DNA of 64,000 nucleotides from positions 124,001-188,000 of the forward strand of contig JAJRXX010000062.1 of NCBI GenBank assembly GCA_024276075.1, read 5' to 3'. The notes below the pieces were generated by a model, which saw nothing but the letters and a program-made list of their open reading frames with translations, had not been told where the DNA came from and ran no database searches. Shown here piece after piece: positions 26,768 to 29,709 of this stretch. Positions within the stretch are counted from its first letter, which is position 1; each line of letters opens with the position of its first letter. The position numbers were made by a program, and so were the translations under genes. The stretch comes from Planctomycetota bacterium (GTDB lineage Bacteria; Planctomycetota; Phycisphaerae; Phycisphaerales; Phycisphaeraceae).

Positions 26768-27355
26768 CTACCGACCCGCAACGACGGGCTTTTCCATTTT
26801 GTAAACATCCCGGGTGATTACCTCGAGAGGTGCACTGCGTCGTTTGTCGCCACTCGTATCAAGCCCAAAGTGCGACACCCGAGTGTAGGAATTTTTAGCC
26901 CGACTCATCTCAGGCCACGGGTAATGCTCAGCCAAACATGTAATGATTTGGCTTTCCGGTGCGACCAGTAGAAAAACCGGCTGTCGAGCGATGCGCCAAG
27001 CAAATGCTGCCCCACGAGGCAGTCGGCCCGCCGTCGTCGCCACAAGCAACCGCCCGTCTTCACACCGCAAAGGCACGAGCTGAAACTGCCACGCCTGCCG
27101 CCTGCTGAACGTACCCAGCACGCTACGGTCTACACTTTCTCGGCGTAGATCGACCCGCGTACCGTAGCTCAGGTACTGCTCGACCCAAGCCTGCTCGACC
27201 GCCTCATGGCTCACGCCGTACAGGTGCTCGGCCAATTCACCGAATGGTCTTGGATGATGCTCTTGGTGCTCTAGGATGAATGCGACTTGTTCATCCGATA
27301 ACTCTTTTCGATCCTTGAGGATTGTTCCGATCCGCGCATGATTTTGCCCTGACAT
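26768..27355 (-). CDS. Stand-alone GspE/MshE N-terminal-domain protein
   Basis: 195 residues from ATG 27355, with GAAGG nine bases upstream. It matches the N-terminal (GspEN/MshEN) domain of type II secretion ATPases: IGTILKDRKELSDEQVAFIL, RPFGELAEHLYGVS, AVEQAWVEQYLSYGTRVDL and FSRRQAWQFQLVPLR. The ATPase domain is missing and no room is left for it, so this is a free N-domain. In secretion systems the domain links to GspL, and the MshE version binds c-di-GMP (family knowledge). Such lone copies are known to me from Planctomycetota; function is unknown. Confidence 0.75.
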   Translation of the reverse strand: MSGQNHARIGTILKDRKELSDEQVAFILEHQEHHPRPFGELAEHLYGVSHEAVEQAWVEQYLSYGTRVDLRRESVDRSVLGTFSRRQAWQFQLVPLRCEDGRLLVATTAGRLPRGAAFAWRIARQPVFLLVAPESQIITCLAEHYPWPEMSRAKNSYTRVSHFGLDTSGDKRRSAPLEVITRDVYKMEKPVVAGR

Positions 27356-27723
27356 TATATGGACCTTCTTTCACGGTTCGGGACAGCATGCGGGACTTAT
27401 CGTCCAACTCCAAGAGCGGCTTTAGCACAATCAGAAAAAATTTAAAAAAACCATTCACACTGTAAGGTTTACCCCAATAAGACTGCCTGAAATTGATACG
27501 CCGCACACACCTGGATCGTGTGTACACTTGCTTTCCACATCAAACGCGTCGCTTGACAAGTACACCAATTCACCAGAAACTGTTCGAAGCATTTAGTTCA
27601 TATGACTTCATGTCTATGATTTGTGGGAATAACGCGTTTCTGCGGTGGAGTGAGCAAACAAATTTAGTATCAGGAAGGGTGGAGATCGTCACATGATTTC
27701 ATTTCAGTGAACACATTAAACGC

Positions 27724-27880
27724 CACAGCAGTATGACTAAAGCTGTGCGTCACTCAAAATATAGTTTGAGTTAATAAAAAATGACCCCAAGACGGTTGTA
27801 CGTCTTGAGGTCACTAGGAGGTCGGTAAGTTCCGACCCACGCCCGCGTCGTCACGGGACAGCAGCGACGCGGGTTTTTTT
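27724..27880 (+). ncRNA. Candidate small structured RNA
   Basis: Five stems in a row: CACAGC/GCTGTG (27724-27747), ACTCAAA-ATATAG-TTTGAGT (27752-27771), a 12-bp stem with one mismatch, TGACCCCAAGAC/GTCTTGAGGTCA (27782-27813), GGTCGG/CCGACC (27820-27837) and the terminator stem CCCGCGTCG/CGACGCGGG (27842-27873) followed by seven T. Both neighbouring genes run on the other strand, so this is not a leader or tail of either. No long frame exists. I cannot match it to 6S, SRP, tmRNA or RNase P RNA. A TTGACA occurs at 27553 but without a fitting -10 box. Confidence 0.5.
27842..27880 (+). terminator. Strong intrinsic terminator
   Basis: A perfect 9-bp stem CCCGCGTCG/CGACGCGGG with a 14-base loop followed directly by TTTTTTT (27874-27880). 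It is oriented on the plus strand, where no protein gene precedes it for over 1 kb, which supports a separate RNA. Confidence 0.8.
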
Positions 27881-28089
27881 ATCGGCATAATCGAGCACAA
27901 CATAAGAAATTACTTCTACAGGTACCGCAAACACAATGGTTTACAAGACCGAAGCGACGACATCTAGACCAGGTTATCCTGGAATATAAGATTCTGTTTT
28001 AAAACAGCTTACACGCACATGCGCGTGCATATGCACCTGTCATATTCCCCCCTGATTGGCCCATCGCCCCGATTGCGAAAAATGTAACG

Positions 28090-29709
28090 CTAATCTTCGT
28101 GTGAGCCGTTTTCTTGTGGCAAGTTCACCGTGATGACCTTCAACATTCCCGGCCGATGACGCAGCCTATTGAGCAACGACTCGGGCACCGGCGCATCGAC
28201 CTTGAGCACCATCAGCGCGGTGTCGTCGCGTCGGCTAATCGCCATGTCGGCGATATTTACCTGCGCTTCGCCTATCTCCGTACCCACCAAACCAACCATC
28301 CCGGGCATGTCCTGATTCAGGATCAGCAGCATCGCGCCTGCGGGGACTATATCCATGTGATAACCGTCGATCTCAACCACACGCGGGCGCATGTCGTGGT
28401 ACACACGTCCTACAATCCGGTGTGGCTGATCACCGCCTCGCACCTCGATCGCCAACTGTGGGCCTTCGAGCTTGCCCTCTTCGCTCGTGACGATGCGCAG
28501 CTTAATGCCTCGCTGTTCCGCTACGTGCTTGACGTTGACGATATTCAAAGGCACATCCATGTGGCTACCCAACACCCCGACTAATCCGACACGCTCAATC
28601 ATGCTCGCCGAGGACGCCAGCGCCTCGCCGCTGAGTTCAAACGTCACCTGTGCCACACCGGCTGTGATCATCGGGCTCATGAGGCACGCCATGCGTCGTG
28701 TCAATTGGACAAACCGCTCTTGGATGGGGTCGAGGTCCACGCGCAGGCCACCGGCGTTAACCGCGCCTTGGATACCCTCGCCACGCAGATATGTCAGCAG
28801 CGAAGCGGCGGCATCAACACTCACAGCACGCTGAGCCTCGACGGTGCTGGCGCCGAGGTGCGGGGTGACCAAGACACGCGGGTGGCTACGCAATGGGCTG
28901 TCAGCCTCCAACGGCTCAGTCTCGAATACGTCCAGTGCCGCGCCACCGCAGCGGCCCGTCTCCAGCGCCACCATCAATGCTTTCTCGTCGATGACCCCGC
29001 CACGCGAGGCGTTTACCACCATCACACCCTTGCGGCACAGCTCAAATGTTTGTCCGTTGAGCATGCCCCGGGTCTGATCGTTTAGCGGGACGTGAAACGT
29101 CAAGATATCCGCGTGGGGCAGCAGGTCCTCAGCTTTTTTGAACATCTTGACCCTGCCGTCCATCGCGGTGGCCGCGTTGAAAAACGGGTCATACGCGACG
29201 ACCCCCATGCCAAACGCCAACGCGCGCTCGGCGACAGCCTGACCAATGCGCCCAAAGCCGATCACTCCGAGCGTCTTGCCAGCGAGTTGGGTACCTTGAA
29301 ATTTTTGACGATCCCAGCCGCCCTGTGCCATCGTCTTGTACGCAGCACCGATATTCCTCGCCAGCGCCATCATCAGGGTAAACGCGTGCTCGGCTGTGGT
29401 GATCGTGCTGGCCTCCGCGGAGTTCATGACCAGGATGCCCTTGGCGGTCGCCGCTGTCAGGTCGATGTTGTCCACGCCCACACCGGCACGTGCGATCGCT
29501 TTGAGTCGACCAGGATTGGCCAAGACCTTGGCGGTCACCTGCGCACCGCTGCGCACGATCAACCCGTCGTACTGGCCCACAATCCCACTCAATTCGTCCT
29601 CGGTCAGGCCGGGCTTGCTCTCTAGTTCCGCGTCGGGCTGGGAACGCACGTAATCCAAGCCCTCTTGAGCGAGCTTGTCCGCAGCGAGAATCTTGAACTT
29701 GTCACCCAC
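28090..29709 (-). CDS. serA: D-3-phosphoglycerate dehydrogenase
   Basis: 539 residues from GTG 29709; AGGAG lies 14 bases upstream. The long, type I form: substrate and NAD domains (GLIVRSGAQVT, TLGVIGFGRIGQAVAERA, catalytic Arg in NASRGGVIDE, VLVTPHLGASTVEAQ with the catalytic His), an intervening regulatory domain (about 320-455) and a C-terminal ACT domain (MLLILNQDMPGMVGLVG). It opens serine synthesis from 3-phosphoglycerate and is usually feedback-inhibited through the ACT domain. It lies 35 bp after hemL and is probably co-transcribed. Confidence 0.97.
   Translation of the reverse strand: MGDKFKILAADKLAQEGLDYVRSQPDAELESKPGLTEDELSGIVGQYDGLIVRSGAQVTAKVLANPGRLKAIARAGVGVDNIDLTAATAKGILVMNSAEASTITTAEHAFTLMMALARNIGAAYKTMAQGGWDRQKFQGTQLAGKTLGVIGFGRIGQAVAERALAFGMGVVAYDPFFNAATAMDGRVKMFKKAEDLLPHADILTFHVPLNDQTRGMLNGQTFELCRKGVMVVNASRGGVIDEKALMVALETGRCGGAALDVFETEPLEADSPLRSHPRVLVTPHLGASTVEAQRAVSVDAAASLLTYLRGEGIQGAVNAGGLRVDLDPIQERFVQLTRRMACLMSPMITAGVAQVTFELSGEALASSASMIERVGLVGVLGSHMDVPLNIVNVKHVAEQRGIKLRIVTSEEGKLEGPQLAIEVRGGDQPHRIVGRVYHDMRPRVVEIDGYHMDIVPAGAMLLILNQDMPGMVGLVGTEIGEAQVNIADMAISRRDDTALMVLKVDAPVPESLLNRLRHRPGMLKVITVNLPQENGSHED

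Follow-up and report, generated by a model that had tools for sequence, protein, structure and literature searches.

The plus-strand segment at 27820-27880 of the window (the whole 64,000-nucleotide stretch analyzed, whose genome is G000 and in whose positions all coordinates below are given) probably forms the conserved 3′ portion of a regulatory small RNA, the terminator loop of which would present a seed that pairs with the mRNA leader of a nearby gene for an MshEN-domain protein, most likely lowering its expression. The comparison of related genomes establishes strand, conserved structure, complementarity of loop and leader, one compensatory change between the two, and co-occurrence of the RNA with the leader site. 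The small-RNA candidate is well supported, and its predicted target unusually so, a compensatory change that links two RNAs being a kind of evidence seldom obtained from sequence alone.

Two predicted transcripts in one intergenic gap

The gap is exactly 734 bp long, and both flanking genes, that for the MshEN protein (26768-27355) and its upstream neighbor serA (28090-29709), are on the minus strand, just as the first-pass annotation described. The five consecutive stems it reported are all where it placed them (about 27720-27751, 27752-27771, 27780-27815, 27820-27837 and 27842-27873), as is the 9-bp terminator stem with its seven T (27874-27880). The plus strand of 27700-27900 (201 nt) has a folding energy of -74.6 kcal/mol versus -47.5 +/- 4.3 for shuffled sequences (z -6.3; equalled in 0 of 200 shuffles). 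The minus strand of the same region folds equally strongly (z -6.3), so that folding energy alone cannot pick the transcribed strand.

Hairpin 3 (27780-27815), which lies about 275 nt past the serA stop and is kept in four genera, has a T-rich tail on the minus strand. The sole irregular pair of its window copy is C-A on the plus strand and G-U on the minus, and the three irregular pairs found across the four genera, A-C or C-A on the plus strand, are all G-U on the minus. Given this tail and the restriction of G-U to the minus strand, and with the stem, then T tract on the gene's strand past its stop that characterize an intrinsic terminator, hairpin 3 is best read as the minus-strand serA terminator, and not as a conserved part of the small RNA. 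For hairpins 4 and 5 (arms registered by hand) each of the eight irregular pairs is G-U when read on the plus strand, against none on the minus, a bias from which the two are best read as plus-strand RNA.

The stems are then best read as split between a plus-strand RNA containing hairpins 4 and 5 and, on the minus strand, the terminator of serA. A single RNA with five stems was rejected, since the irregular pairs of hairpin 3 point to the minus strand, and since hairpins 1 and 2 (27720-27771, plus strand), present in the window, are unconserved, being outside every cross-genus match. Of the earlier proposal of an independent small RNA with its own terminator, what stands is a plus-strand RNA, on the strength of five genera and of stem changes on both sides, but not one RNA of five stems; the 12-bp stem that it singled out exists, as hairpin 3, but is best read as the serA terminator and is no evidence for a plus-strand RNA. 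That proposal also did not include the likely target, the leader of the divergent MshEN gene.

The conserved element and its distribution

The conserved core is about 62 nt. Hairpin 4 (27820-27837, plus strand; GGTCGG-TAAGTT-CCGACC) retains its structure in five genera through G-U pairs and one change on both sides. Hairpin 5 (27842-27880, plus strand), an intrinsic terminator with a 9-bp stem, a 14-nt loop and seven T that marks the predicted 3′ end of the small RNA, is near-invariant in four genera and has two both-sides changes in the fifth, G066. Across the 64 pair cells of the four well-registered sequences only standard pairs occur, and three pairs are changed on both sides, with 0 in slid controls; this is the covariation in relatives that the first-pass annotation proposed to look for, seen here in hairpins 4 and 5. 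The 14-nt loop has a conserved GGGA-C/U-AGC and includes the putative seed, CGGGACAGCA (27854-27863, plus strand), which complements the MshEN leader in five genera. The breadth of retention, the paired changes and the G-U bias point to a conserved non-coding unit with a structured 3′ terminator. The first-pass annotation assigned it to no housekeeping RNA; no Rfam covariance model matches the region above gathering score, and the literature searches made returned no account of an RNA of this kind.

A nucleotide search of 60 related genomes places the element in three further genera (G012, G010 and G004), always with serA on one side and the MshEN gene on the other, and a covariance model detects the diverged copy of G066 beside an MshEN paralogue, there on the opposite side of the gene relative to the other genera. 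A second model, built without the window copy and without a second copy in G012, recovers both, at 64.8 and 46.7 bits. Scans of the order (400 genomes) and of the class (397 genomes), under strict filters that may miss weak matches, brought no further convincing copies to light, and weak model matches in other families (G305, G130) were set aside as ordinary short-loop terminators with a similar stem. An exact-pattern scan of public genomes returned Phycisphaeraceae/Planctomycetota records together with one actinobacterial match, and no viral copies. In these searches, the family appears restricted to a few genera of Phycisphaeraceae. The second G012 copy (L021 1820-1882, contig 30) has the same seed and trails a same-strand gene by about 230 nt; the product of that gene we take, from reading the sequence, to resemble DUF2294 proteins and the convergent gene on the other side to encode an MlaE-like permease. 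No MshEN gene is nearby, which counts against the proposed regulatory role.

Also counting against a small RNA is the uncertainty of its promoter, the position of which is unconserved between genomes. A weak candidate at 27553-27581 on the plus strand (TTGACA-N17-GAAACT), a consensus match only, might yield an RNA of about 290 nt; G010 has a better match, TTGACG-N17-GATAAT.

Complementarity of loop and leader

Within the leader of the MshEN mRNA, the predicted target site TGCTGTCCCG (27379-27388, minus strand) has its first base 33 nt before the AUG. The complement of the loop there reads UGCUGUCCCG (minus strand 27388-27379), spans 24-33 nt before the start codon and lies just upstream of the ribosome-binding site. 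In four genera the complementarity extends over 9-10 pairs at the same leader position: G010 also has UGCUGUCCCG, and G012 and G004 have UGCUGUCUCG, with a G-U pair for G-C. In G066, with loop GGGAUAGC and leader GCUAUCCC, a loop change of C to U is matched by a leader change of G to A, the one full compensatory loop-leader change seen, the remaining changes being G-U-compatible. By these features the seed would be complementary to its target leader and kept so through compensatory change. As four of the five loop-leader pairs share recent ancestry, independent support for pairing comes chiefly from the G066 change together with the G-U-compatible ones. The location of the G066 RNA on the other side of the gene implies that the pairing is no by-product of antisense overlap.

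Predicted duplexes across the five genomes range from -15.5 to -20.6 kcal/mol, and the number of shuffled leaders per 1000 that score as well is 2 for the window, 17 for G012, 6 for G010, 25 for G004 and 5 for G066. The MshEN leader ranks best of 48 leaders in the window and best of the 14 scored in G004; where its start codon was set by alignment, its value versus that of the best other leader scored is -17.6 versus -15.5 (G012), -18.7 versus -14.1 (G010) and -15.6 versus -14.9 (G066). Among 28 further MshEN loci, all of them without the RNA in their vicinity, no such site is present close to the start; stray matches there are few and of 7 nt, the exception being a 9-nt match in a hairpin whose loop has 5 nt. 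Because the loop complements the MshEN leader base by base and across genera, the RNA probably regulates that gene.

A coding explanation for conservation of the site also merits attention. In all five genomes it reads start codon-Leu-Ser-Arg, out of frame with the MshEN gene (27389-27355 in the window), and coding constraint in a possible short upstream reading frame here might count against pairing. Conservation of that frame does not extend past these four codons, which favors pairing and leaves an upstream frame as a lesser possibility.

Scanning four genomes with TGCTGTCYCG for a wider regulon gave 39 matches, of which almost all lie within open reading frames. One leader in G010 (contig 258; L147 1480-1510) belongs to a gene for a 131-aa secreted-looking protein and has TGCTGTCCCG at 31 nt before its AUG; for this protein no orthologue was detectable in the other genomes compared; this leader is possibly a second target, an anecdotal one peculiar to G010.

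The same comparisons bear on whether hairpins 4 and 5 could be nothing other than the terminator of a longer or antisense transcript, with the loop kept for termination and the leader match accidental. In favor of such a role are the quality of hairpin 5 as a terminator, the failure to find a conserved promoter upstream of it, and the placement of the second G012 copy downstream of a same-strand gene. Termination does not need an invariant loop, however, and same-stem terminators in relatives have short and different loops; nor does an accidental match sit easily with recurrence at the same place in five genera, co-change in G066 and absence where the RNA is absent, all of which leaves this explanation improbable.

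Somewhat less probable again is a functional RNA on the minus strand that starts at a GCCGATA beyond the plus-strand T tract, ends at hairpin 3 and merely shares a motif with the leader. Directly past the T tract, ATCGGCATA (27881-27890) is conserved in three genera and on the minus strand reads GCCGATA, with no good -35 element. The form GCCGATAWA, which is like a sigma28 -10 element, is kept in three genera, with GACGATAA in a fourth, and hairpin 3 as a minus-strand terminator would provide a fitting end. Yet most genomes have no -35 element at the right distance, hairpins 4 and 5 read on the minus strand would have A-C at all eight of their irregular pairs, and the second G012 copy and the G066 copy are without both the promoter motif and the minus-strand terminator. 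A sigma28-driven minus-strand small RNA was rejected on account of the irregular pairs and the missing -35 elements.

That the shared sequence is a protein-binding site, whether a DNA operator present in two copies or, in a sponge RNA, a loop site for CsrA, is least credible: an Rrf2 regulator gene adjoins the MshEN gene, all five genomes have CsrA and GGGA occurs in the loop, but an operator leaves the RNA stem compensation and the G-U strand bias unexplained, and for CsrA the ANGGA consensus occurs only in G004, GGA is in one loop only and the leader strand is without GGA at the site.

The predicted target and mode of action

The predicted target gene (26768-27355, minus strand) encodes a 195-aa MshEN-domain protein (Pfam PF05157, E 9.5e-9), which is probably a c-di-GMP receptor. 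Read by eye, it has two 24-residue blocks with a five-residue joint, with Arg and Gln in the first block, at MshEN positions described as important for c-di-GMP binding (PMC12943098). Named records of its relatives are from Phycisphaeraceae/Planctomycetota. A sigma28 (FliA)-like promoter, TAAAG-N17-ACGATAA, precedes the gene at 27397-27424 on the minus strand. The pattern TAA-N17..20-NCGAT is found in 17 of 33 MshEN leaders of the family (0.57 expected), and FliA is present in all five genomes. This shared promoter suggests that the stand-alone MshEN proteins belong to the motility regulon.

With hairpins 4 and 5 taken as the 3′ end of a plus-strand small RNA, such an RNA would be made from the gap and end at 27880, its intrinsic terminator presenting the seed in its loop for pairing with the MshEN leader before the ribosome-binding site. 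The target site is probably near the mRNA 5′ end, given the sigma28-like promoter directly before it; judged from promoter spacing, the expected mRNA start would be no more than a few bases away from it in four of the five genomes. Pairing in the cell would most likely lower translation or stability of the MshEN mRNA, repression being the commoner outcome of pairing in this mRNA region and activation the alternative, and the small RNA would thereby lower the level of a c-di-GMP receptor that belongs to the motility regulon. We consider rather unlikely a more distinctive arrangement: a dedicated small RNA linked to, and co-changing with, a single gene for a stand-alone c-di-GMP receptor of the sigma28 regulon where Hfq is lacking, with a seed that may cover the start codon of the short upstream frame and act on its translation.

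Relation to known systems

No Pfam match to Hfq was obtained in the five genomes (5 of 14 control genomes score), and the Hfq expected in the genome for an Hfq-dependent small RNA is accordingly missing from what was detected. The literature searches made turned up no base-pairing small RNA described in Planctomycetota, so that the candidate would be an early case there. It would also tie control by a small RNA to the sigma28 (motility) regulon and to c-di-GMP signaling in bacteria with no detected Hfq.

With sponge RNAs of the CsrB/RsmY type there is the likeness of a GGA in a hairpin loop and of CsrA in the genomes. The several loops with ANGGA of such RNAs are, in contrast, represented here by one GGA loop in which that consensus is not kept. 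OxyS of E. coli pairs with fhlA through loop seeds of 7-9 nt (PMC5575007); unlike the present candidate, with no Hfq detected, it needs Hfq, and it uses two loops. ChvR of Caulobacter is an Hfq-independent and highly structured RNA with seeds in stem-loops. It pairs with its target mRNA in two places: at the 5′ end and, through a third stem-loop that is possibly its terminator, near the start codon (PMC6237742). The differences are that ChvR has two pairing sites, another target and experimental tests behind it, compared with the one site found here from sequence inspection, and no sequence relation between the two is known. ChvR is a precedent for Hfq-free pairing through a loop, whether at the 5′ end of the mRNA or shortly ahead of its start codon (PMC6237742). 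Hairpins 4 and 5 most likely represent a new family of small RNAs. In its way of working it would resemble the loop-seed small RNAs already known, and it does not amount to a novel type of system.
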